Positions 5,519-42,109 of a DNA stretch of 45,896 nucleotides are shown piece by piece; position 1 is the stretch's first letter; each line of letters starts with the position of its first letter. Under the pieces are notes generated by a model. The model did not search any database and was not told the origin of the DNA. It saw only the letters and a list, made by a program, of their open reading frames with translations. Origin of the DNA: an uncultured Oscillospiraceae bacterium. Lineage in GTDB: Bacteria; Bacillota; Clostridia; Oscillospirales; Oscillospiraceae. A program made the translations under genes and the position numbers. Location of the stretch: the NCBI GenBank assembly GCA_949935795.1, contig CATLFX010000018.1, positions 1 to 45,896 on the forward strand, read 5' to 3'.

Positions 5519-6331
5519 TTGACTCAGATAATCACCGTCACCAACCAAAAAGGAGGGGTGGGCAAAACCACCACCGCTTCGGCCCTGGTGTGCGGGCTCC
5601 ACCAGCGCGGGGCGAAGGTTTTGGGCATCGATCTGGACCCCCAGGGCAACCTGGGCTTCACTCTGGGGCTGGACATCGGCTCAAACAGCACCGTTTATGA
5701 CGTGTTCAAGGGGAACTGCTCTATGGAGGAGGCCATTGCCTCCACCGAGTTCGGCGATGTGCTGCCCTCAGACATCATGCTGTCCGCCGCCGAGGTGGAG
5801 TTCACCGCCCCCCGGCGGGAGTTCATGCTCAGCGACCTGCTCATGGCGGTGCGGGACCGGTATGATTTCATCATCATCGACACGCCCCCGGCGCTGAATA
5901 TCCTCACCGTCAACGCCTACGTGGCCTCCACCGGCCTCATTGTGCCCATGGAGGCGGAGGTGCTCAGCCTGGTGGGCGTCACCCAGCTCCAGGAGACCAT
6001 TGAGACGGTGCGGGACGCCTTCAACCCCAACTTGAAGGTGATCGGCATCCTCATCAACAAGTTCAACGGGCGGCTCACCCTGTCCAGGGACATTCTGGAG
6101 CTGGCCCAGGAAGTGGCAAGTCAGTTGGGCAGCCGGGTGTTTGAGGCCAAGATCCACCGGGGTGTGGGCGTAGCCATGGCCCCCGCCCACGGGCAGAGCG
6201 TGCTCACCTACCAGCCGGACTCCCGTCCCGCCCAGGATTTCCAAGAGATTGTGGACGTGGTGGCGGGGGACCGCTTCCCCCGGCCCAAGCCCACCTTCCG
6301 TCAGAAGTATATCTCTAAATTTTTCAACTAA
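5519..6331 (+). CDS. ParA/Soj-family ATPase
   Basis: 270 residues from a TTG at 5519, chosen because AAGGGAGGG ends 9 bases before it; the upstream in-frame GTG at 5498 has no ribosome binding site. The deviant Walker A KGGVGKTT is at residues 11-18, IDLDPQGN follows near 38-45 and the Walker B-type FIIIDTPPAL near 117-126. ParA ATPases form dynamic gradients on DNA or membrane to position cargo such as plasmids, chemoreceptor arrays or carboxysomes. No ParB gene or obvious parS repeats are nearby. It lacks the N-terminal extension typical of FlhG, yet sits divergently from fliD. It is followed 18 bases later by a ComFB-domain gene, so the two are probably one unit. Confidence 0.88.
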   Translation: MTQIITVTNQKGGVGKTTTASALVCGLHQRGAKVLGIDLDPQGNLGFTLGLDIGSNSTVYDVFKGNCSMEEAIASTEFGDVLPSDIMLSAAEVEFTAPRREFMLSDLLMAVRDRYDFIIIDTPPALNILTVNAYVASTGLIVPMEAEVLSLVGVTQLQETIETVRDAFNPNLKVIGILINKFNGRLTLSRDILELAQEVASQLGSRVFEAKIHRGVGVAMAPAHGQSVLTYQPDSRPAQDFQEIVDVVAGDRFPRPKPTFRQKYISKFFN

Positions 6332-6349
6332 GTGAAGGAGTACAGCGTC

Positions 6350-7024
6350 ATGGCATCTAAGGATAAGACCAGCAAGACCGCGCGGGTCATGAACCTGCTG
6401 AGCAAAAAGCCCGACCCCGCCGCCGAGGCTGCGGCCCCGGAGGCCCCTGCAGCGCCCGCGGCCCCGGTACCCCCCATCGTCACCTCCATGGCCCCGGACG
6501 CGGCGGTGTCGGTGCAGATCAAAAACGCCCTGGAGGACGCTTTGGAGGGGGAGTTGGAGGTCCAGCAGCCCGCTCCGGCCCATGGGTCCCAGCCTGAGCC
6601 CGTCCCCGTGGCGGTCCAGGCGGCCCCCGCGCCCGAGCCGGAGCCCGAACCCGAACCCCTTCCGGCGGAGCCCGAGCCGGTTCCCCAGGCGGCGGAGCCT
6701 GAGCCCGCCCCGGTGAAGGACGGGTCCGCCCATGAGTTTGTGGAGCCGGAAAACCCGGGCTACATCAACGTGATGCAGGTGCTGGTGGAGGAGAAGGCCC
6801 CCAAGTACGTGGAGATGTTCGGCCTGTGTACCTGCAAGCGGTGCATGGAGGACGTGAAGGCCTATACCCTGAACCACCTGCCCCCCAAGTACGTGGTGCT
6901 GGAGCCCAATGACCGGGTGCCCCGGCTGACGGTGTACGAGGGCAAATTCAGCAGCGACATCACGGCCCAGCTGCTCCAGGCGTGCAAGGTGGTCATGGAG
7001 ACGCCCCACCACGCCCGGGACTGA
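6350..7024 (+). CDS. ComFB-domain protein with a long Pro/Ala/Glu linker
   Basis: 224 residues from the ATG at 6350, with AAGGAG 9 bases upstream; the earlier GTG at 6332 is rejected. Residues 1-20 are basic, 20-125 are a low-complexity Ala/Pro/Glu region with EPEPEP runs, and 137-216 form a ComFB-type domain: INVMQVLVEEKAPKYVEMF, then CTCKRCMEDV (Cys160, Cys162, Cys165) and LNHLPPKYVV. ComFB was named from the late competence comF operon of Bacillus; domain members have more recently been reported to bind cyclic dinucleotides. The Cys cluster may hold a metal. Paired with the ParA ATPase upstream, it could be its cargo adaptor. No function is proven. Confidence 0.8.
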   Translation: MASKDKTSKTARVMNLLSKKPDPAAEAAAPEAPAAPAAPVPPIVTSMAPDAAVSVQIKNALEDALEGELEVQQPAPAHGSQPEPVPVAVQAAPAPEPEPEPEPLPAEPEPVPQAAEPEPAPVKDGSAHEFVEPENPGYINVMQVLVEEKAPKYVEMFGLCTCKRCMEDVKAYTLNHLPPKYVVLEPNDRVPRLTVYEGKFSSDITAQLLQACKVVMETPHHARD

Positions 7025-7034
7025 AAAGGAAAAA

Positions 7035-7076
7035 CTCTGGCGGATGAATCCCATCCGCCAGAGCTTTTCTTTTTTT
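7035..7076. terminator. Bidirectional rho-independent terminator
   Basis: A perfect 12-bp stem (7035-7046 with 7052-7063, 5-base loop) is followed on the plus strand by CTTTTCTTTTTTT and on the minus strand by TTTTTCCTTTT. It ends both the parA-comFB unit and the 27-kb flagellar operon, whose last stop codon is 20 bases away. Confidence 0.9.
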
Positions 7077-7082
7077 GATGGG

Positions 7083-8378
7083 TCAGCCCTGGGGTGCGTT
7101 CGGGGTCTCGCCCGTGGGGGGAAGCTGCTGGGGGTAGGGGTTGGTGAGCTGTTCCCACAGGGTGTTCACGTTTTCCATGCAGATGAAGTAGACGCTGGTC
7201 ATCATGTTGTCGGGGATGCCCAGCTCCTCCGCCAGCACGGTAATCTTTTCCCAGTCGGCGGACTCATAGCTGAGCACCAGGTCGTACAGCTTGCCGCAGC
7301 GGCCCTCATGGGTGAGCAGGGCGGCTTTGATCTCGTCTGCCACCGGCACCTCCGCCAAAATTTCATCCAGGGGGGCGTCAATGAGGTAGTTCAGGGTGGA
7401 GAACATGCCCATGAGATAGGCCTCCGACTTGGAGATGGGCATGTTTTTGGCGTGGTTCATCAGCTCGCTGCAAAAATTGGCCCGCAGGAAGGAGCGCTTC
7501 AGGAACTCCTCGGAGCCGGGGTCCACCTCGTTTTCCGCGTTGCTGGCGCTGAGCAGGTAGATCCACTGCTTCAGCTGGCCCAGGCCCAGGGTCATGATGG
7601 CCTGGGTGATGGTGGTGGCGCGGTGGCGCAGGGCGAAGTAAGCGGAGTTGACCATTTTCAGCAGGCCGTAGGTCAGGCTGGCGTCGGCGGCGATCATCTG
7701 CTCGATCTCCTCCACGTTGGGCTCGTCCTTGGTGACGGCCACCATCAGCTGGAAGAAGTTGCTCTGGATGTAGGCGCTGCTGTGGGCCTGGGTGGTGAGC
7801 TTGGCCGCCACATAGGGGCCCTCCAGCCCGTCCGCCCCCAGGGCCACCGCCCGCTGGTACTGCTTTTCCCCGTCGATGTTGGTGACGATGCACTTGATGT
7901 TCATGCTGTGGGCGATCTCCACCGTGTTGCGGATGGTGAGCTCGGTGGCGGTCTTGGCGTTGATCTTGATGAAGTGGATGTCGTCCAGCAGGGAGAGGTA
8001 CCGGGGGGTGAACTGGAAGTCGTTCACCGCGATGCGGTAGCCCTCCTTGGCGTACTGCTGCACCAGGTGCATGGACAGGGGATGGATAATCACCGCGTCG
8101 TCGATCTGGATGACCAGGTCGCTCTTGTCGAACAGCCGGGGGGTCTTCTTCATCAGGAGCATGGTGGTGAAGGTCATGAAATTCAGCGTGCCCTTCAGCA
8201 CCTTGGGGCTGTTGTCGGTGAGAAAATTGTAGATGGTGTTGGCGGCGGCAAATTCCGCGCTGGATGTGGAGCTGTCACTGCTGAAGGCCTGGTTGGCGCC
8301 GTGGTAAAGGATCTCATGCCCGAGGGTGTTGCCCGCGGCGTCTCGAATGGGCTGCCGCACGATATATTTGCCGCTCAT
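7083..8378 (-). CDS. HDOD-domain signalling protein with degenerate EAL domain (CdgJ/YuxH-like)
   Basis: 431 residues. The N-terminal 200 or so resemble an EAL fold (KYIVRQPIRDAAGNTLGHEILYH, then FIKIN and a C-terminal VTNIDGEKQ part), but the catalytic E-x-L-x-R reads EILYH and other metal ligands are missing, so c-di-GMP hydrolysis is unlikely. Residues about 215-400 form an HDOD domain (ADASLTYGLLKMVNSAYF, then ITQAIMTLGLGQLKQW). EAL-HDOD proteins are scaffolds in motility and adhesion signalling. It is the last gene of the flagellar operon, 33 bases from cheV by its stop-to-start gap, with ATAGGAGG nine bases before the ATG. The partner is unknown. Confidence 0.85.
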   Translation of the reverse strand: MSGKYIVRQPIRDAAGNTLGHEILYHGANQAFSSDSSTSSAEFAAANTIYNFLTDNSPKVLKGTLNFMTFTTMLLMKKTPRLFDKSDLVIQIDDAVIIHPLSMHLVQQYAKEGYRIAVNDFQFTPRYLSLLDDIHFIKINAKTATELTIRNTVEIAHSMNIKCIVTNIDGEKQYQRAVALGADGLEGPYVAAKLTTQAHSSAYIQSNFFQLMVAVTKDEPNVEEIEQMIAADASLTYGLLKMVNSAYFALRHRATTITQAIMTLGLGQLKQWIYLLSASNAENEVDPGSEEFLKRSFLRANFCSELMNHAKNMPISKSEAYLMGMFSTLNYLIDAPLDEILAEVPVADEIKAALLTHEGRCGKLYDLVLSYESADWEKITVLAEELGIPDNMMTSVYFICMENVNTLWEQLTNPYPQQLPPTGETPNAPQG

Positions 8379-8411: not shown

Positions 8412-9344
8412 TTAGCCCCGTGCCTGCTTATCCTGGCGCAGGAGCAGATGGTCCATTACGTCCACCAGATGGCCGATCTCCGGCTTGGTGAGCTGTTCGT
8501 CCGCGCCCAGGTCCCGGCCCTTGCGGCGCATCTCCTCGCTGATGAGGGAGGAGAAGATGATGAGGGGGATCTGCTTGAACCGGGTGTTGTCCTTCACCAG
8601 CTTGGTCAGCCGGTGGCCGTCCATCTGCGGCATCTCGATGTCGGTGATGATGAGGGCCACGTCCCGGGTCAGATCGCCCTCATGGGGCAGGGCCTCCAGG
8701 GCCTCCCACAGCTCCAGGCCGTTGGAGAACATGTGCAGGTTGACGTAATTGGCCTTGCGCAGGGAGTCCTCGATCATTTTGCTCAGCAGGACGGAGTCCT
8801 CCGCCACCCAAATGGGCCTGTCGTTGCGCTCCCGGGGGCCCAGCTGCTCCACCTCGGACATCTGGATGGAGGTCTCCGGGGCGATCTCCGCCACAATGCG
8901 CTCAAAGTCCAGGATGGTGACCAGCTCGCCGTCGCACTGGGCGATGCCGGTGGCCACGCCCTCCGTGCCGCCGGACACGGTCTTGTCCGGCTTCTGGATG
9001 TCCGTCCAGGAGATGCGGCTGATGCGGTCCACGGTGTGCACCCGGAAGGCGATGAACATCTTGTTGAAGTTGGTGATGATGAAGATGTCCTTGGGGTCCT
9101 TGGGGCTTTCCACGCCCAGGTAGCTGGGCAGGTCCACCACGGTGAGCACGGTGTCCCGGGGCTTGAAGATGCCCTCCACCGCATGGTGGGCCATAGGCAT
9201 GGGCTTCACCGGGGCGGAAATCATGATCTCCCGCACCTTGGCCACGTTGATGCCGTAGAGGTTGCCGCCGATGGTGAATTTCATGATCTCGATCTCATTG
9301 GTCCCGGACTCCAGAAGGATGCCTTGCTTGTTTTCTTCCATCAT
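8412..9344 (-). CDS. cheV: Chemotaxis coupling protein CheV (CheW-receiver fusion)
   Basis: About 310 residues: an N-terminal CheW-like domain (IEIMKFTIGGNLYGINVAKV, then PVKPMPMAHHAVEGIFKPRD) followed by a response-regulator receiver (WVAEDSVLLSKMI, phospho-acceptor Asp in LIITDIEMPQMDG, Lys in LTKPE). CheV links chemoreceptors to CheA and adjusts coupling when phosphorylated. I start it at the ATG at 9344, which has AAAGGGAG eight bases upstream; an in-frame GTG at 9353 overlaps that site. It follows cheD by about 30 bases. The partner kinase CheA is not in the window. Confidence 0.92.
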   Translation of the reverse strand: MMEENKQGILLESGTNEIEIMKFTIGGNLYGINVAKVREIMISAPVKPMPMAHHAVEGIFKPRDTVLTVVDLPSYLGVESPKDPKDIFIITNFNKMFIAFRVHTVDRISRISWTDIQKPDKTVSGGTEGVATGIAQCDGELVTILDFERIVAEIAPETSIQMSEVEQLGPRERNDRPIWVAEDSVLLSKMIEDSLRKANYVNLHMFSNGLELWEALEALPHEGDLTRDVALIITDIEMPQMDGHRLTKLVKDNTRFKQIPLIIFSSLISEEMRRKGRDLGADEQLTKPEIGHLVDVMDHLLLRQDKQARG

Positions 9345-9374
9345 TTCCAACACTCCCTTTCCGCTTGCGCGGTG

Positions 9375-9854
9375 TCAAATGATAAGTTCCTTGCGGCCAT
9401 AGCTCCGAATGCACGCCAGGCCGGTATTCACATCAAAGAGCAGGGTGCGGGCCACCGTCCCGCCCACATCCTCCTTCAGCAGGCGGATGCCCTCCTTTTT
9501 CAGGTTGAGCTTGACGCTGTCAATATTCCGCTGGCCAATGTTGCCCATCGAGCCGCTGCTGTCTTTAAACATCATAGCCCCGCCGGCGATCTTGGCGGTG
9601 ATCCTGGAGCGGCTGGCGCCCTTGGCCTCCATCTGCTTCAAGGTCTCTCTGATCCCGGTATCGGCATATTTCATCGGGTTCTTTCGCCCCGTCTCCATAT
9701 TCAGCGGCAGCATGATGTGCACCAGGGCCCCCAGCCTGAGGGCCGGGTCGTGCAGGCAGATGCCGATGCAGGACCCCAGCGCGTAGGTGACCAGCATTCC
9801 CTCTCCCTTGGCCATCTTCATGTCCGCAATACCGATCGTGATCTTATCAGCCAT
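9375..9854 (-). CDS. cheD: Chemoreceptor glutamine deamidase CheD
   Basis: 159 residues, normal CheD length. The catalytic triad is visible with the spacing known from CheD: Thr23, Cys29 in ALGSCIG and His46 in VHIMLP. CheD deamidates Gln residues of chemoreceptors and binds CheC, increasing CheC phosphatase activity on CheY-P. Its start overlaps the last codons of cheC by 8 bases, so the two are likely translated together, matching their known complex. Confidence 0.95.
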   Translation of the reverse strand: MADKITIGIADMKMAKGEGMLVTYALGSCIGICLHDPALRLGALVHIMLPLNMETGRKNPMKYADTGIRETLKQMEAKGASRSRITAKIAGGAMMFKDSSGSMGNIGQRNIDSVKLNLKKEGIRLLKEDVGGTVARTLLFDVNTGLACIRSYGRKELII

Positions 9855-10473
9855 CGCTCACGCCCAACCTCCGTAACAAAGCGTTCAGCGACCGAAGGTC
9901 CGGCGACATCAAAAGCCGGCAGGGAACCTCCTTGTTTTCGCTTACAAAATTGCCCCCGATGGTCATGATGTAGTCGGACTGCCCGCCGTACTCCGCCATG
10001 GGCACGGCCAGAATGGCGCCCTGCATGTCCACGGTGAAGGCGGGCACGGTCAGATTCACGTCCATGCCGGCCAGGCCGCTCAGGGCGTTGATAAAGGTGG
10101 AGATCATGATGTTGCCCACCTCCACCAGAGCGGAGTGCTCCATCTCGGTGAGCTGGGCGTAGTCGCCGACCGTCTTGCCCATCATGCTCCCCAGCACGAC
10201 GTTGACAAACTCCAAAGGCTGAACCGACAGCATGATGCCGGAGATCTGGCCGCTGAGCTTCACCAGCACGCCGGCGGTGATTTCCTCCGGGCCGCCGATC
10301 CACTCGATGGCCTCGTTGTAGCCCATGATGCGCACCTCGGGCAGGGTGATGCGCACCGTGCGCCCCAGCATTTGCGACAGGGCGGTGGCGGCGTTGCCGG
10401 TGCCGACGCTGCCGATCTCCCGGAGGGTGTCCAACTCTAGGGAATTCAGCTCGTCGTAGTTCTTAATCGCCAT
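9847..10473 (-). CDS. cheC: CheY-P phosphatase CheC
   Basis: 208 residues with the two pseudo-symmetric CheC halves. The second active site is intact (Ser114, Glu118, Asn121 in SALVEVGN, then Pro in NLTVPAF). The first reads DTLREIGS, with Ser22 where the site usually has Asn, so that half may be weak or inactive. CheC dephosphorylates CheY-P and is regulated by CheD. ATAGGAGG precedes the ATG. Downstream of the rod genes and upstream of cheD, it opens the chemotaxis part of the operon. Confidence 0.93.
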   Translation of the reverse strand: MAIKNYDELNSLELDTLREIGSVGTGNAATALSQMLGRTVRITLPEVRIMGYNEAIEWIGGPEEITAGVLVKLSGQISGIMLSVQPLEFVNVVLGSMMGKTVGDYAQLTEMEHSALVEVGNIMISTFINALSGLAGMDVNLTVPAFTVDMQGAILAVPMAEYGGQSDYIMTIGGNFVSENKEVPCRLLMSPDLRSLNALLRRLGVSDG

Positions 10474-12017: not shown

Positions 12018-12860
12018 TCATGCCTTCTTCCGCTTTTTGCTTGATTTTTTTGGGGCCTCGCTGTTCATGTATGCGCCCATATGCTCCCGCAGCTTCTGGA
12101 TGGCCCGGGAGTGGATCTGGGAGATGCGGGGTTCGCTGACCTGCATCACCTGGGCGATCTCCTTCATGTGAAGGTTTTTTTCGTAATAGAGGGACAGGAC
12201 GATCTGTTCGTTTTTTTGCAGGGAGGCGACGCCTTGGGCCAGGGTCTCCTGGAGCTCCTGGTCCTCCAGCACGGACTCGGGCTGGACGGTGGGGTCCTCG
12301 GTGGACACCTCGAAGCGGTAGCCCTCCAGGTCCCGGGCGTCCATCAGCGCGTCCAGAGACAGGGTGTTGGACAGGGCCACCCGGGCGGTCTCCTTCTGAT
12401 ACTTGTCGGTGGGGATGCCCAGGTGGGCGGCCACCTCCTGGTCGGTGGGGAACCGGCCCAGCTCGTTGGACAGGGAAGACACCGCCGCGTCGATCTCCTT
12501 GGCCCGCTGGCGGATGTTCCGGGGCAGCCAGTCCTGCTTTCGGGCCAGGTCGATGACCATGCCCCGGATGCGCTTGGCCACGTAGGTCTCAAACTTGATG
12601 CCCTTCTCCGGGTCGAACTTGTCGATGGAGCTGAGCAGGGTGAGGATGCCCTCGCTGACGATATCGTCCACCTGAGCGAAGCTGCTGTACACGCCCCGGA
12701 TCTGCAGCGCCGCGCTTTTAATCAGCCCCTCGTACCGCAGGACCAGGGGCCATTTCAGGGTCTCGTCCCCGGTCTGCTTGTAGAGGGCCAGCAGGTCGGG
12801 GGTCTCCATGGCCTCGATCTCGGCCTCGGTGTAACGCCGTTGGGCGACGCCTGTGCTCAT
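12018..12860 (-). CDS. fliA: RNA polymerase sigma factor FliA (sigma-28/SigD)
   Basis: 280 residues with sigma-70 regions 2 (YEGLIKSAALQIRGVY, DDIVSEGILTLLSSIDKFDPEKGIKFETYVAKRIRG), 3 (LGRFPTDQEVAAHLGIP) and 4 (NEQIVLSLYYEKNLHMKEIAQVMQVSEPRISQIHSRA), and a Lys-rich tail. This is the FliA/WhiG group, which directs late flagellar genes. Its ATG overlaps the flhA stop by 4 bases (ATGA), so it is made along with the export gate. The fliD promoter in this window is a likely target. The anti-sigma factor FlgM is not here. Confidence 0.95.
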   Translation of the reverse strand: MSTGVAQRRYTEAEIEAMETPDLLALYKQTGDETLKWPLVLRYEGLIKSAALQIRGVYSSFAQVDDIVSEGILTLLSSIDKFDPEKGIKFETYVAKRIRGMVIDLARKQDWLPRNIRQRAKEIDAAVSSLSNELGRFPTDQEVAAHLGIPTDKYQKETARVALSNTLSLDALMDARDLEGYRFEVSTEDPTVQPESVLEDQELQETLAQGVASLQKNEQIVLSLYYEKNLHMKEIAQVMQVSEPRISQIHSRAIQKLREHMGAYMNSEAPKKSSKKRKKA

Positions 12861-14962
12861 GCGTTCACCGCCCTTCGCTGGACCTGGGCGGCGGTCTGGT
12901 CGGTGATGTTGCCCAGGGCCTGGATCTGCACGGTGTTGGTGATCTCATTGAAGGAGAGCACATAGACGTGGGGATAGAACTGGGTAATCATCCTGCTGAA
13001 ATAGCCGCGGATGACCTGACTGACCAGGATGACGGGGGTCTGGGACAGGTCGCCGAACTTTTTCAGGTGCTCCGCCAGCTGAGAGATGATGGACTGCATG
13101 AGCTCGGGGCCCATGGCCAGGTACACGCCCTGCTCGTTGCGGGTGAGGGAGGAGATGATCTTCTTCTCCACCTCGGCGTCCAGGGTGATGACCCGCAGCT
13201 GGCCGTCCTCGCAGAACCGGCGGGTGATGGTGCGGGCCAGGGCGCCGCGGACCTGCTCGGTGGCCATATCCAGGTCCCGGCCCTGGGAGAAGGCATCGGC
13301 GGCGGTCTCCACAATGGTGGCCAGGTCCTTGATGGGCACGCCCTCCATCAGGAGGTTGCGCAGCAGCTTCTCCAGCTTGGAGTAGGGGATAATGGCCGGG
13401 ACGGCCTCCTCCACCAGCTCGGGGGAGGTCTGCTTCAGATTGTCCACCAGCCGGATGGTCTCCGCCCGGCTGAGCAGCTCGTAGGCGTGCTTTTTCACCG
13501 TCTCGGCCAGGTGGGTCAGCATGACGGACAGGGGGTCGATGACGTTGTAGCCGTAGATCTCCGCCATCTCCTTGTTCTCGGGGAGAATCCACCGGGAGGG
13601 GATGCCGTAGGCGGGCTCGATGGTCTCGATGCCGTCGATCTCCCCCAGGGGGTTGGGGGGCTCCAGGGCCAGGTAGTAGTCCACCAGGATCTCGCCCTGG
13701 GCCACCACCTCGCCCTTGATGCGGATGGCGTACTGGTTGGTGCCCAGCGCGGAGGAGTCGTGGAGGCGGATGGAGGGGATGACGAAGCCCATATCCTGGG
13801 CGTACTGCCGCCGGAAGATGACGATGCGGTTGATGAGCTTGCCGCCGTGGCTCTCGTCCACCAGGGGGATGAGGCTGTAGCCGAACTCCATCTCCACCGG
13901 CTCCACCGACAGCAGGGTGTACACGTTGTTGATATCCTTGTAGTAGTCGCTCTCGCTGGGAGCGGCCAGCTCGGGGGCCTCCTCGGGGGCCTGGGCCGCG
14001 GCGATCTCCGCCTGGACCTTGGCGTCCTTCTGGCGGTTGAGGAAAAATCCTCCTCCGCTCAGCGCCGCGCCGCCCAACAGCAGAGGAATGGTGGGTGTGC
14101 CGGGGATGACGCCCAGGAACAGCAGGATGACGCCGGTGGTCATGAAAGCTCTGGGCTGGGCGGTGAACTGGCTCATTACGTCCGCGTTCAGGCTGCCGTC
14201 GGACACGGAACGGGTGACGATCATGCCCGTGGCGGTGGAGATCATCAGGGAGGGGATCTGGGACACCAGGCCGTCGCCGATGGTGAGGATGCAATAGGTC
14301 TGCATGACCTCCATGATGTCGCCGTCGTTGACCACCACGCCGATGATGATGCCGCCCACCAGGTTGATGAGCGTGATGATGATGGACATGGTGGAGTCGC
14401 CCTTGACGATCTTGGTGGCGCCGTCCATGGCGCCGTAGAAGTCGGCCTCCTTCTGGATCTTCTCACGGCGGACCCGGGCCTGCTGCTCGTCGATGAGGCC
14501 GGAGGACAGGTCGGCGTCGATGGCCATCTGCTTGCCGGGCATGGCGTCCAGGGTGAACCGGGCGGCCACCTCGGACACGCGCTCCGCGCCCTTGGTGATG
14601 ACGATGAGCTGGACCAGCACGATGATGAAGAAGATCACGAAGCCCACCACGATGTTGCCCTGGGTGATGAGGTTGCCGAAGTTGTTGATGACCACGCCGG
14701 GGTTGCCGGTGGTGAGGATCATCCGGGTGGAGGACACGTTCATGCCCAGCCGGAACAGGGTGGTAATGAGCAGCAGGGAGGGGAAGATGGAGAAATCCAG
14801 CGCCTCCGAGATGTTCATGGTAATCATCAGGATCATGATGGACAATCCCAGGTTGACGATCAGCAGGATGTCCAGAATCTCGGGCCGCAGGGGGATGAAC
14901 AGGAACATGACCACCACGACCACAAACAGCGCTATGGCGTTGTCGGTAATGCGTTTGAGCAT
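12857..14962 (-). CDS. flhA: Flagellar export gate protein FlhA
   Basis: 701 residues, standard for FlhA. The N-terminal half contains about eight membrane helices (FVVVVVMFLFIPLRPEILDILL onwards) and the conserved FHIPEP-region features such as TLFRLGMNVSSTR and the loop GERVSEVAARFTLDAMPGKQ; the C-terminal half (from about 330) is the cytoplasmic ring domain that receives chaperone-substrate complexes. It uses the proton motive force for export. GGAGGTG precedes the ATG. In many Clostridia flhF and flhG follow flhA; here fliA follows directly. Confidence 0.97.
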   Translation of the reverse strand: MLKRITDNAIALFVVVVVMFLFIPLRPEILDILLIVNLGLSIMILMITMNISEALDFSIFPSLLLITTLFRLGMNVSSTRMILTTGNPGVVINNFGNLITQGNIVVGFVIFFIIVLVQLIVITKGAERVSEVAARFTLDAMPGKQMAIDADLSSGLIDEQQARVRREKIQKEADFYGAMDGATKIVKGDSTMSIIITLINLVGGIIIGVVVNDGDIMEVMQTYCILTIGDGLVSQIPSLMISTATGMIVTRSVSDGSLNADVMSQFTAQPRAFMTTGVILLFLGVIPGTPTIPLLLGGAALSGGGFFLNRQKDAKVQAEIAAAQAPEEAPELAAPSESDYYKDINNVYTLLSVEPVEMEFGYSLIPLVDESHGGKLINRIVIFRRQYAQDMGFVIPSIRLHDSSALGTNQYAIRIKGEVVAQGEILVDYYLALEPPNPLGEIDGIETIEPAYGIPSRWILPENKEMAEIYGYNVIDPLSVMLTHLAETVKKHAYELLSRAETIRLVDNLKQTSPELVEEAVPAIIPYSKLEKLLRNLLMEGVPIKDLATIVETAADAFSQGRDLDMATEQVRGALARTITRRFCEDGQLRVITLDAEVEKKIISSLTRNEQGVYLAMGPELMQSIISQLAEHLKKFGDLSQTPVILVSQVIRGYFSRMITQFYPHVYVLSFNEITNTVQIQALGNITDQTAAQVQRRAVNA

Positions 14963-17940: not shown

Positions 17941-18348
17941 TCACCTCGGTTTCTTTTGCTTGAGTACGGTGCGCAGCGCCTCCGCAAAGCTGGGGGGAGG
18001 CGGCTGGTCCGAAGGGGGCTGGCAGAGCGCCTTTGCCTCCTCGGGGGTCAATTCCGCCGTCAGGGTCACCCCCGAGGGGCCCGTTCCCAGCAGGAGGTAG
18101 CGCTCCCCGGCCTGAACCAGCACCAGGGATTGGTCACGGCTCAGGGGCAGGCGGGCCAGCACTTTGAACTGGGCGGTCCCGCCCCCCGTGCCGAAAAAGC
18201 TGCCGTTCCGGCCCGCCACGTACTTGGTGAACAGGTAGGCCAGCACGACGATGGCCAGCACGCAGACCAACAGCCAGAGCAGGGAGAGGATGTTGTCCAG
18301 CGCGGTGGTTTCCAGGGCCAGGGGAAGCCTGCCAGGGGAAACGGCCAT
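17941..18348 (-). CDS. fliO: Flagellar export assembly protein FliO
   Basis: 135 residues. One strong membrane helix (NILSLLWLLVCVLAIVVLAY, about 19-38) is followed by a small cytoplasmic domain with the typical FliO pattern (KVLARLPLSRDQSLVLVQAGERYLLLG, about 62-88) and a Pro-rich tail. FliO helps assemble FliP into the export core. Its start overlaps the cheY stop by one base (TGATG) and fliP follows, which together with the helix-domain layout supports the call despite weak sequence conservation in this family. Confidence 0.88.
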   Translation of the reverse strand: MAVSPGRLPLALETTALDNILSLLWLLVCVLAIVVLAYLFTKYVAGRNGSFFGTGGGTAQFKVLARLPLSRDQSLVLVQAGERYLLLGTGPSGVTLTAELTPEEAKALCQPPSDQPPPPSFAEALRTVLKQKKPR

Positions 18349-18716
18349 CAGGGCGCGCCCAGGATAGAGGTGACGGTTTTGAGGACGCGGTCGGGCTTAA
18401 AGGGCTTGACGATGAAGTCCTTGGCGCCGGAGCGCACGGCGTCCATAACCATGGACTCCTGGCCCATGGCGGAGCACATGACCACGTTGGCGCTGCCGTC
18501 CTTGGCGCGGATGGCCTTCAGGGCCTCCAGGCCGTCCATGTTGGGCATGGTGATGTCCATGATGACCAGGTCGGGCCCGATCTCGCTGAACTTCTCCACC
18601 GCGTCGGCGCCGTCAACGGCCTCGAACAGCTCGGTGTAGCCGTTCTTGCTCAGGGTGTCCATGATCATCTTGCGCATGAATGCGGCGTCGTCCACTAACA
18701 AAATTTTCTTAGCCAT
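18348..18716 (-). CDS. cheY: Chemotaxis response regulator CheY
   Basis: A single receiver domain of 122 residues: acidic pair in LLVDDAAFMRKMI, phospho-acceptor Asp in LVIMDITMPNMDG, Thr/Ser switch in VVMCSAMGQ and Lys in FIVKPFKP. I start it at the ATG at 18716, with AAAAGG upstream; the longer frame to 18737 lacks a site. CheY-P binds the N-terminal peptide of FliM/FliY to change rotor behaviour. Its place between fliY and fliO is the standard Firmicutes one. Confidence 0.95.
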   Translation of the reverse strand: MAKKILLVDDAAFMRKMIMDTLSKNGYTELFEAVDGADAVEKFSEIGPDLVIMDITMPNMDGLEALKAIRAKDGSANVVMCSAMGQESMVMDAVRSGAKDFIVKPFKPDRVLKTVTSILGAP

Positions 18717-18801
18717 GGTTGATCCATCCTTTTCCATTTATGTTGTGTACCCCCGCATGTCGCCGGGGCGCGATTTTATGAGGTCAGCCCTAAGGCAGTC
18801 C

Positions 18802-20328
18802 TTACTTGTGGTTGGTGGCCAGCATCTCAATGCCGGGGGTCTGGACGATCTCCGTAATGCGCACGCCGAAGTTGTCCTCGATGACCACCACTTCGCCCCG
18901 GGCGATGCACTTGCCGTTGACGAACAGGTCCACCTGGTCGCCCGCCAGCTTATCCAGCACCACCAGGGAGCCCTTGGCGAACTCCAGAATGTCCTGGACC
19001 TTCCGCCGGGCCCGTCCGATTTCCACCGTCACCTGGAGGGGCACCTCCATGATGAGGTCCAGGTTCTGGGCCTGCTCCTTGCCCAGCCGGTCCATGGGGT
19101 CCATCTCCTCCATGCGCACCGGCTTGGTGGAGATGACCTTGGGCTCGGGGGGCGCTTTCTGGACCGAGCCCTCAGGCTGAGGCGGATAGGGGTACGGGTA
19201 GGGGGGGTAGTACATGGGGGGGTAGCCCATATAGCCGCCCTGCATCTGGCCGTCCATCCCGGGCATGGGGTAGGGCATGGGCATCTGGCCCATCTGGGGG
19301 GGCATGGGGGCCTGGGCCGCAGGCGCCTGGGGCGAGGCGGGCGGAGTCTGGGCCGCCGGAGCGGGCTGGGGCGCAGGCTGGGGAGCGGGAGCCGGAGCGG
19401 GCTCGCTGTTCATGCCGGCCAGCATGGCCTCGATCTCCGCCTGGCTCATCTTGTGGTCGCCGCCGCCCGAGGGCTCGGGGGCGGGAGCCGGGGCGGGCTC
19501 GCTGTTCATGCCGGCCAGCATGGCCTCAATCTCCGCCTGACTCATCTTATGGTCGCCGCCGCGGTCGGGCTCCGGCTCAGGAGCGGGGGCCGGGGCGGGC
19601 TCGCCGCCCATACCGGCCAGCATGGCCTCGATCTCCGCCTGGCTCATCTTGTGGTCGCCGCCGCCCGAGGGCTGGGGCTCAGGAGCCGGAGCGGGGGCCT
19701 CGGCAGGAGCGTCGGACGCGCCGGTGACCTCGCCCTCCAGGCCCAGGCTCTTCAGCAGCTCCTTGGCCAGGGCCACGGACATCACGTTCATGAACTCGCT
19801 CTCCAGCGCGTTCTCGATCTTCAGGTAGAAGCGCACCACCACGATCTGGTCCGCCCCCTGGGGCAGGTGCTCCAGCTTAAACTGGTCCAGATCGTTCAGC
19901 TCGAAGGACTGGGGGGTGGAGATGTCCACCCGGAAGCCCAGAAAGTCGGACATGGCGGTGGCGGCGGACCCCATCATCTGGTTCATGACCTCGCACACGC
20001 AGCTGATGGTCAGCTCATTGAGCTCGAAATCCTCATCGGCGGTCTCCATGCCCATGAGTATGTCCACGATGACCTTGATGTCGCTGCGCTTGAGCAGCAT
20101 GATGTTGCTGCCCTCCAGGCCCTCGACGTATTTGATCTCCACGCCGATGGCCGGCTCCAGGTTGCCCAGGGTAAAGTCCTTCACGTCCACCACGGACACC
20201 GTGGGCGTGGTAATATCCACCCGGTGGTCCAGCATGTTTGACACGGCGGTGGCCGAGGAGCCCAGGCTGATATTCATCATTTCGCCCAAGGCGTCGATCG
20301 CCATTGGGCTGAAGATTTGCTTCTCCAT
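18802..20328 (-). CDS. fliY: Flagellar switch protein/CheY-P phosphatase FliY with three internal CheY-binding-type motifs
   Basis: 508 residues, longer than usual FliY. Residues 1-195 are a CheC-like domain with both phosphatase sites intact (Glu16/Asn19 and Glu113/Asn116); 420-508 form the FliN-type C-ring domain (LIMEVPLQVTVEIGRARR, then GVRITEIV). Between them lies a 220-residue linker rich in Ala, Pro, Gln, Tyr. It carries three near-identical copies of MSQAEIEAMLAGM (228-240, 262-274, 294-306). This resembles the LSQ-x-EIDALL peptide that in FliM and Bacillus FliY sits at the very N-terminus and binds CheY-P; here the N-terminus lacks it. The protein would sit in the C-ring, removing phosphate from CheY-P. 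Confidence 0.95.
   Translation of the reverse strand: MEKQIFSPMAIDALGEMMNISLGSSATAVSNMLDHRVDITTPTVSVVDVKDFTLGNLEPAIGVEIKYVEGLEGSNIMLLKRSDIKVIVDILMGMETADEDFELNELTISCVCEVMNQMMGSAATAMSDFLGFRVDISTPQSFELNDLDQFKLEHLPQGADQIVVVRFYLKIENALESEFMNVMSVALAKELLKSLGLEGEVTGASDAPAEAPAPAPEPQPSGGGDHKMSQAEIEAMLAGMGGEPAPAPAPEPEPDRGGDHKMSQAEIEAMLAGMNSEPAPAPAPEPSGGGDHKMSQAEIEAMLAGMNSEPAPAPAPQPAPQPAPAAQTPPASPQAPAAQAPMPPQMGQMPMPYPMPGMDGQMQGGYMGYPPMYYPPYPYPYPPQPEGSVQKAPPEPKVISTKPVRMEEMDPMDRLGKEQAQNLDLIMEVPLQVTVEIGRARRKVQDILEFAKGSLVVLDKLAGDQVDLFVNGKCIARGEVVVIEDNFGVRITEIVQTPGIEMLATNHK
19381..19665 (-). repeat. Three tandem coding repeats in the fliY linker
   Basis: Three units of about 96-102 bases, each encoding GGGDHKMSQAEIEAMLAGM plus an Ala/Pro/Glu spacer (codons about 222-316 of fliY). 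The copies differ by several synonymous changes (for example ATC/ATT and GCC choices), so the duplication is not brand new and the peptide seems to be under selection. Confidence 0.9.
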
Positions 20329-20331
20329 CGC

Positions 20332-21357
20332 TTACTCGCTCCTTTGCTCGGCCGAATAGCATACCTCGTCTATCTTAATGGCCATGTTTTTCTTGTGGGT
20401 GCCCATGCGCCCGGTGAACCACTGGTAGCCGCCGATCTCCAGGAACACGGGAGAGTCCTTGGAGCGGCCCAGGTCCACCACGTCGCCTACATTGAGATGA
20501 TAGATGTCGCTGAGGGACAGCTGGGTGTCGCCCAGCTCCGCGATGATCTCCAGGGTGGAGTCCCGCAGCTTGTCGAAGATCTCCTCCGAGTTGTCCTCGC
20601 TGGTGGCCTTCCGGCCCATAGTCTCCCGGCTGACCTCGCCAAAGACGCTCACCAGCATGTTGCCCGGAAGCACCACGCTCATGCGCCCCTCGCTGCCGCC
20701 GAAGTCCAGCTTCATGTCCACCAGCACCACGGTCTCATCCAGGTTCAGCAGGGTCACCAGGGTTGGGTTCACCTGGGTGTGGTTATACTCGAAGGTGACG
20801 GGCACGTAGTTCTCCCAGCTGCTGCCCATCAGCGAGATGATGTCCCGGAGCAGGTGCTCGTAGAGCTGGAGCTCCAGGTCGGTGTAGGCGTAGCCCATGG
20901 GGATCTCCCGCTCCGACTCGTTCTCGCTGCCCATCATGCGGTCCATCATCCCCAGCGCCGTTGAGGTGGACAAATACACCATCACCGGGTCGTCCACCAG
21001 GAGATCCTCGCCGCCCTCATCACGGGGATGGATGGTGACGTCCACCATGGCCAGCACGTCTCCCTCCATCAGCGCGTTGTTGAACTCGTAGAACTTCTGT
21101 TCCTCGATGCTCTCCACCGTGATCTCACAAGTGGTGCGCAGCTGGGCGTTGAGCCGGGAGCTGATGACCCGGGTGTAGTTTTCAAAGATGCCGTTGAGCA
21201 TCTTGATGCGGTCCTTGGTGAATTTGCGGGGGGTGGTGAAGTCATATTTCCGATATTTTTTCTCTGGCTGTTTTTCCTCCGCCTTGCCAGAATCCCCGCC
21301 GCTCAGCATGGAGTTGAGCAGCGCGTCGATCTGACTTTGTGACAATACTTCAGCCAT
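20332..21357 (-). CDS. fliM: Flagellar motor switch protein FliM
   Basis: 341 residues. The N-terminal CheY-P-binding peptide LSQSQIDALL is at 5-14, followed by a linker, the central CheC-like domain (about 40-235) and a C-terminal FliN-like domain (about 245-330). FliM ties the C-ring to FliG. The loop that usually contains GGPG and contacts FliG reads GSEN at 143-146 (MMDRMMGSENESERE), an unusual substitution. The gene follows motB and is followed after 3 bases by fliY. Confidence 0.95.
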   Translation of the reverse strand: MAEVLSQSQIDALLNSMLSGGDSGKAEEKQPEKKYRKYDFTTPRKFTKDRIKMLNGIFENYTRVISSRLNAQLRTTCEITVESIEEQKFYEFNNALMEGDVLAMVDVTIHPRDEGGEDLLVDDPVMVYLSTSTALGMMDRMMGSENESEREIPMGYAYTDLELQLYEHLLRDIISLMGSSWENYVPVTFEYNHTQVNPTLVTLLNLDETVVLVDMKLDFGGSEGRMSVVLPGNMLVSVFGEVSRETMGRKATSEDNSEEIFDKLRDSTLEIIAELGDTQLSLSDIYHLNVGDVVDLGRSKDSPVFLEIGGYQWFTGRMGTHKKNMAIKIDEVCYSAEQRSE

Positions 21358-41545: not shown

Positions 41546-42109
41546 ATGTTAGAGTATGAGAGAGAATTATTTGATGAGTTTAAGCGCTTAGAGTCCCTTT
41601 GCCGCGATATGTTCTCCTGTCAACACGGTGTGAGCGAGTATATCAACCAAATGGAACAAATCCCTCCCTACATAAAGAACCGGATTCCATCATGGGACAG
41701 AGATTACCGGACCTTAAAGCATTTGCGGTGGTTGCGAAACCAAATCGCCCATGAAATGACTGCAACGGATTGCGATTTCGATGATGTGGAACAGCTTAAG
41801 GATTTTTATAGACGTATCTTGAATGGACAAGATCCTCTTGCTATGGCAAGGAAGGTGAAACAGAACACACAAAGTTGTTCTTGTCAAAAAAGCAGTAACA
41901 ATATAAAACTCAAAAGTGTTTTTTACGATAACAAGCGGGAGCAAAAGCGGACGCACAGTCTTTCATACGTGTGGTTCAGCCTGATTTCATTGATTTTGAT
42001 TATTTTAATCATACTTTTATTCGTTTCAGGTATCAAAAATGAAAAGCGGGAAAGACCATCACTGCATATTCAAGATTCCTGGGAAACGATGACGGATACC
42101 ATGATTTAG
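41546..42109 (+). CDS. Small HEPN-like protein with C-terminal membrane anchor
   Basis: 187 residues. The helical N-terminal part contains LRWLRNQIAHEM, with Arg64 and His69 in an R-x4-H arrangement typical of HEPN RNase domains. A basic Ser/Gln/Lys-rich linker (about 100-138) leads to one membrane helix at 141-162 and a short tail. The gene is clearly AT-richer than everything around it, with codons such as AAA, ATT, TTA, which suggests later acquisition. Active HEPN proteins cleave RNA in toxin-antitoxin and defence systems, but no antitoxin lies next to it, so it might be inactive or regulatory. I do not recognise the exact family. Confidence 0.6.
   Translation: MLEYERELFDEFKRLESLCRDMFSCQHGVSEYINQMEQIPPYIKNRIPSWDRDYRTLKHLRWLRNQIAHEMTATDCDFDDVEQLKDFYRRILNGQDPLAMARKVKQNTQSCSCQKSSNNIKLKSVFYDNKREQKRTHSLSYVWFSLISLILIILIILLFVSGIKNEKRERPSLHIQDSWETMTDTMI

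Follow-up and report, generated by a model that had tools for sequence, protein, structure and literature searches.

What does a flagellar switch protein do with three docking peptides in the middle of its chain and none at its start? The question is raised by the FliY encoded in a 45,896-nucleotide stretch of DNA from an uncultured Oscillospiraceae bacterium (contig CATLFX010000018.1 of assembly GCA_949935795.1), hereafter the window; the assembly amounts to 2.2 Mb and is 70% complete.

A FliY with docking peptides in its linker

The gene fliY (18802..20328, minus strand) encodes 508 residues arranged as a CheC-like phosphatase domain (about 1-200), a Pro/Ala linker and a SpoA/FliN domain (about 420-500). 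The Pfam models CheC, for two repeats, and FliMN_C, for the FliN-type domain at the C-terminus, both score above cut-off, and the model for the flagellar motor switch phosphatase FliY, NF005995, gives 324.9 bits against a cut-off of 218, its match starting at model position 31. No EIDAL-type peptide precedes the CheC domain, as the sequence-only reading had held. Because the frame opens one codon upstream of the ATG and the stop codon of fliM ends three bases before that ATG, a hidden upstream N-terminal peptide is impossible. The adjoining fliM (20332..21357, minus strand) retains its single N-terminal peptide, LSQSQIDALL, its product beginning MAEVLSQSQIDALL; this too bears out the earlier description.

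What the FliY carries instead is the 13-residue peptide MSQAEIEAMLAGM, refound three times in the linker at exactly the positions first reported: residues 228-240 (19609..19647), 262-274 (19507..19545) and 294-306 (19411..19449), all on the minus strand. At the DNA level the three peptide-plus-spacer units form a tandem repeat (19376..19698, no strand assigned) with a period of 96-102 bp and 3.2-3.3 copies. A degenerate peptide pattern, which omits the SQSQID form found in FliM, has three matches in the whole assembly, and all three are the FliY copies. The three 13-codon copies differ from one another at one to three bases in 39, and every difference is synonymous. The suggestion that these differences argue for selection on the peptide holds in part: all of them are indeed silent, yet one to three bases are too few to carry the argument alone. 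It is the comparison between species that reveals constraint on the peptide.

An AlphaFold2 model built from 50 sequences places the CheC domain with confidence and leaves the linker disordered. Between residues 202 and 416 its only helices are 230-238, 264-272 and 296-304, which fall on the three copies in turn with a pLDDT of 60-71, as against 40-54 in the surrounding linker. The model as a whole reaches a mean pLDDT of 69.7 and a pTM of 0.52, its SpoA part being poorer. It fits a picture in which the copies would be tethered docking peptides, each a short helix, and it does not name their partner.

A clade-wide array under constraint

Relatives were gathered in two ways. For the near set, a related-genome search gave a match in 46 of 149 genomes, some of the matches being incomplete FliYs, and a scan of contigs from named genomes added at least 80 loci. 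For the class-wide set, 158 of 392 drawn genomes had a match; 143 loci were fetched, both domains were present in 135, and 133 rows were kept once the masked L215 and L274, truncated where its contig stops, had been removed. Near loci are often duplicated as two records (for instance L006 and L058), and recognised named duplicates were left off the tree. The resulting tree of 224 FliYs holds 73 proteins of the linker type, 131 of the N-terminal type, 20 without either peptide and none with both, proportions that are not natural frequencies since the near set was chosen by similarity to the FliY of the window. All 73 linker-type rows belong to the near set. Among the 133 class-wide rows, 122 have the N-terminal peptide, 11 have no peptide and none has a linker peptide.

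On a reduced tree the linker types fall into a single clade of 63 rows (SH-aLRT 99). Records named Oscillibacter (L082, L096, L124), Agathobaculum (L106, L114) and Lacrimispora (L120) belong to it, together with several labelled Lachnospiraceae. The array is thus a clade-wide feature and not the quirk of a single genome; counting motif copies across relatives, as had been proposed, reveals a relocation and multiplication of the FliM/FliY-type peptide that is conserved throughout a clade. Copy number itself is fluid. Among the 73 tree rows three copies occur in 38, two in 20, four in nine, one in five and five in one, and at least 23 changes are needed on the tree. The sole row with zero copies in the clade, L030, comes from a 100% complete genome in which FliM and FliY are still present. 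The linkers are also long, with a median of 200 residues in linker types against 84 in all 131 N-terminal types.

The nearest outgroups are FliYs without a peptide (G044, G065, G085, G382, G507, G410, G521 and G228), a placement with a modest SH-aLRT of 80 in a quick tree whose own warning notes long branches meeting among the outgroups. The peptide-less FliYs L032, L034, L036, L283, L286 and L288-L290 are the nearest relatives that the linker type has in the tree. Like the outgroup FliYs just listed, they come from genomes in which no FlhF scores above cut-off.

When FliYs sharing identical last 150 residues are counted once, 83 unique linker-type proteins contribute 219 copies, with three in 46 proteins, two in 26, four in six and one in five; this tally differs from that of the 73 rows because slightly different patterns and row sets were used. 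The copies follow the profile [ML]SQEEIE[KRA][ML][LM]. Glutamine occupies position 3 in all 219 and isoleucine position 6 in 99%, where the search pattern allowed Q, P or A and I, V or L, respectively. They conform to the docking-peptide core [LM]S[QP]x[EQ]I(D/E/N) followed by a hydrophobic pair, with E rather than D at position 7. Since the copies had been picked by pattern, a profile scan was run over all linkers. It gave 225 stretches a score of at least 20 bits, namely the 219 copies plus six that the pattern had missed, and placed three at 10-15 bits and one near 0, the background lying lower; decayed copies are therefore rare. Copies that had degenerated and drifted freely would have spoken against a function for the peptide, and few stretches lie between the intact and the background scores.

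Within the genus of the window, 18 of 19 FliYs have exactly three copies. There the peptides show a pN of 0.08-0.13 and the spacers one of 0.20-0.31, a contrast that misalignment may inflate, as pS is also lower in the peptides (0.33-0.37 against 0.63-0.64) and the spacer alignments are uncertain. The corresponding pN/pS values are 0.23-0.38 for peptides, 0.31-0.49 for spacers and 0.12 for the CheC domain, so that the contrast between peptide and spacer is weak. Copies from one gene share a mean identity of 0.83, those at corresponding positions in different species 0.82 and all other pairs 0.77, a pattern that reads as a sign of duplication with partial homogenisation.

The linker peptides also constitute a subtype of their own. 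At position 7, D is found in 104 of 130 N-terminal FliY peptides (with N in another 22) and in 99 of 99 FliM peptides; the 196 linker copies have E there in 174 cases and never D, and 133 of them carry K or R at position 8. With these residues differing, the linker peptides are not recent copies of the FliM peptide, and they may have an affinity, perhaps a weaker one, or a partner that differs from that of the FliM peptides. A second array occurs in genus g9, which belongs to the family of the window's genome and in which 14 of 19 genomes have a match. All 12 readable FliYs (L295-L306) have the usual first peptide together with one to four extra copies, 30 in total, that resemble MSPEAIAAML (exactly so in 12 of the 30). 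Both this FliY and that of the window carry an array of several FliM/FliY-type peptides, but the g9 array precedes the CheC domain. In the tree a wide distance separates the g9 member L044 from the linker clade, so that arrays of several copies seem to have had at least two origins, in different places.

Candidate partners and competing explanations

CheY is a known ligand of this class of switch peptide (PMC9126983, PMC6946799), and its gene is close at hand. The cheY of the window (18348..18737, minus strand), which would encode the presumed ligand, follows fliY. The closest solved sequence to its product is Thermotoga CheY 4IGA, with 62 of 116 residues identical, an entry that we take to be a CheY structure with the FliM peptide. 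Of the 97 linker-type loci whose DNA extends far enough, 72 have a CheY gene within 900 bases after FliY, by a crude regular-expression test that counts duplicate records. In 76 neighbouring CheYs located by this expression, duplicates included, 72 of them beside linker types, the alpha4-beta5-alpha5 stretch is strongly conserved. FliM has exactly one N-terminal peptide at 99 of 99 linker-type loci that include FliM, duplicate records again counted, and in 78 it is LSQSQIDALL. In all 17 genomes surveyed (16 linker-type and G102), no SpoA protein other than FliM and FliY was found.

Elsewhere in the window, a CheV-like protein of CheW and receiver domains (8412-9353), a CheD (9375-9854) and a CheC (9847-10473) lie in the same cluster and together make up an adaptation set of the Bacillus style. 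A 428-residue open reading frame without a Pfam match (5768-7054) adjoins an EAL-HDOD protein (7083-8378), and a DUF6548 protein is encoded on the plus strand (41546-42109), opposite the flagellar genes.

On balance we lean towards reading the FliY of the linker clade as a multivalent array on the FliN-type subunit that docks CheY, most likely as CheY-P. Each copy would act as an EIDAL-class peptide that folds into a short helix and hangs on a disordered tether. Since the 17 genomes have no FliN-type protein besides FliY, several peptides would be presented wherever the C-ring has a FliN position. CheY would thereby be enriched around the ring of FliM and FliY and close to both phosphatase sites of the CheC type, with higher occupancy and turnover as the outcome. 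As the tree suggests, a lineage devoid of FlhF and FlhG would have lost the N-terminal peptide, and one of its descendants would later have gained a linker peptide and gone on altering its copy number. The architecture, its conservation, the missing N-terminal copy and the absence of detectable FlhF and FlhG are observed; CheY as ligand, dependence on phosphorylation and an effect on switching are the parts that we infer. Counting against a CheY array are the subtype shift at positions 7 and 8, the weak pN/pS contrast and the loss of the array in L030. Moreover, Thermotoga FliY showed no preference for activated CheY in solution assays, according to a review (PMC7355467).

A wider version of the CheY-docking reading, which is tentative and on the whole doubtful, would make the N-terminal FliY peptide a port shared by CheY and FlhG. 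This port would have been lost after the loss of FlhF and FlhG and rebuilt as a linker array of a distinct affinity class, FliY and not FliM would hold most of the CheY at the motor, and the copy number of one to five would let evolution tune the gain of the switch or the decay of the signal.

Alternatively, the peptides may bind CheY chiefly to feed the CheC-type sites of the same FliY, serving signal termination rather than input to the switch. The sequence-only reading had called these sites intact, and both ExxN pairs, E16/N19 and E113/N116, which we take to be the catalytic residues of CheC-type phosphatase sites, prove invariant in an alignment of 50 FliYs; such feeding is therefore possible. 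A simple chain model likewise gives a local concentration of about 1-10 mM for bound CheY at the CheC domain, under assumptions of our own. However, FliYs without a motif, such as L032, have the same ExxN residues, which makes the phosphatase sites independent of the array. The evidence bears equally on phosphatase feeding and on switch input, so that feeding by the array is plausible without having specific support, and we consider it unlikely to be the chief role.

A third possibility is that an assembly factor, either FlhG or another ATPase replacing it, docks on the linker peptides. It takes its appeal from work on Geobacillus and Bacillus, in which the first 36 residues of FliY (FliY-N36) are necessary and sufficient for binding FlhG (PMC12327844). 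Genome content bears on this directly. FlhG scores are bimodal in 80 genomes, with 17 at 220 bits or more and 63 at 110 or less, and an intact N-terminal FliY peptide is present in 16 of the 17 FlhG-positive genomes against three of the 63 FlhG-negative ones. FlhF exceeds the cut-off in 70 of 80 class-wide genomes and in eight of 46 near genomes, but it never does so in the 73 tree rows of linker type or in the 50 genomes with linker-type loci, a set in which many genomes are incomplete but which includes the complete genome of Oscillibacter valericigenes Sjm18-20 (L096) and the 100% complete G124. Nor was FlhG found in the 48 linker-type genomes searched, all of which score 110 bits or less; the cross-table of FlhG against peptide shows 47 of them because the FliY of G038 is split between contigs. 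In the window, neither flhF nor flhG lies between a putative flhA (12857-14962, minus strand; named from its length and operon context) and the sigma-70 type factor directly after it (12018-12860, minus strand), a stretch covering 12018..14962, and neither was found in the 70%-complete assembly. By contrast, G049 of genus g9 has both FlhF and FlhG, unlike the linker-type genomes.

The co-occurrence of the N-terminal peptide with FlhF or FlhG is nevertheless not strict. Seven rows have an N-terminal peptide without FlhF (L038, L039, L043, L048, L243, L271 and L278), and six have FlhF without an intact peptide (L257, L261, L270, L276 and the pair L045 and L046 from one genome). In L270 (G351) and L261 (G184), FlhF is present, FlhG scores are low, and the N-terminal peptide is lost or degenerate. 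These two cases offer hints that FlhG may be what keeps the N-terminal peptide in such lineages. G069, which lies outside the 80 genomes, is a counter-example: it has flhF with a neighbouring flhG, and its two FliYs, L045 and L046, are both without the N-terminal peptide. Once shared ancestry is allowed for by independent pairs, the N-terminal peptide and FlhF show no significant association (median p 1); the seven pairs on supported branches average 1.0 in the same direction, 1.2 in the opposite direction and 4.8 with no difference, few separate events being involved. A phylogenetically corrected link was accordingly dropped, and the co-occurrence of peptide and FlhF holds only at the level of clades. 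The FlhF and FlhG searches thus weaken FlhG docking of the linker peptides, and an assembly factor as the partner now appears quite improbable. With FlhG apparently absent from linker types, CheY becomes the likelier known ligand, and by elimination it would be the likelier partner of the linker peptides.

Very unlikely, finally, is a neutral tandem-repeat expansion of a GC-rich, low-complexity linker in which copy number means nothing: the DNA is a tandem repeat, copies in the same gene are alike and their number is fluid, but spacers vary from 8 to 18 residues while the peptides remain intact, the profile scan falls into intact copies with hardly anything between them and the background, zero copies occur once in the clade, and g9 has an array as well, at another position.

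Relation to known switch proteins

What can the linker clade add to the understanding of the flagellar switch? How CheY is captured by the peptide and then handed over to second sites of the C-ring is unsettled and may vary by species (PMC7355467). A clade with the capture peptide on the FliN-type subunit and with zero to five natural copies is a ready copy-number series, which could show whether the valency of capture sets switch sensitivity or CheY-P turnover. Furthermore, as these lineages appear to be FlhG-less, they may allow what the FliY peptide does for CheY to be told apart from what it does for FlhG.

PMC6946799 describes full or degenerate EIDAL motifs as sporadic in FliN and FliY, and PMC9126983 states that every motile bacterium has the motif in its FliM and FliY, which the 20 peptide-less FliYs of the 224-row tree do not fit. 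Multi-copy or internal FliY peptides were not found in the part of the literature that was consulted.

Among characterised proteins, Thermotoga maritima FliY offers a structural counterpart: 4HYN, which we take to be its CheC domain, aligns with the FliY of the window from residue 5. No array is described for the Thermotoga protein, and its affinity for CheY is no higher upon activation, so far as the accessible part of PMC7355467 goes. FliY of Bacillus subtilis and Geobacillus likewise combines a CheC-like phosphatase with a FliN-type domain. The Bacillus type, however, begins with an LSQxEIDALL-like peptide, as most class-wide rows do, and the FliY of the window has none; linker-clade FliYs have one to five EIE(K/R/A) peptides in a linker more than twice as long by median. 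A further parallel is the N-terminal EIDAL peptide of FliM, which shares with the linker copies the core [LM]SQxxI(D/E)x[LM][LM] and a flexible tether. Yet FliM has one copy, at its start, with D invariably after the isoleucine, whereas in the linker-clade FliY the peptide is internal, usually repeated and never has that D.
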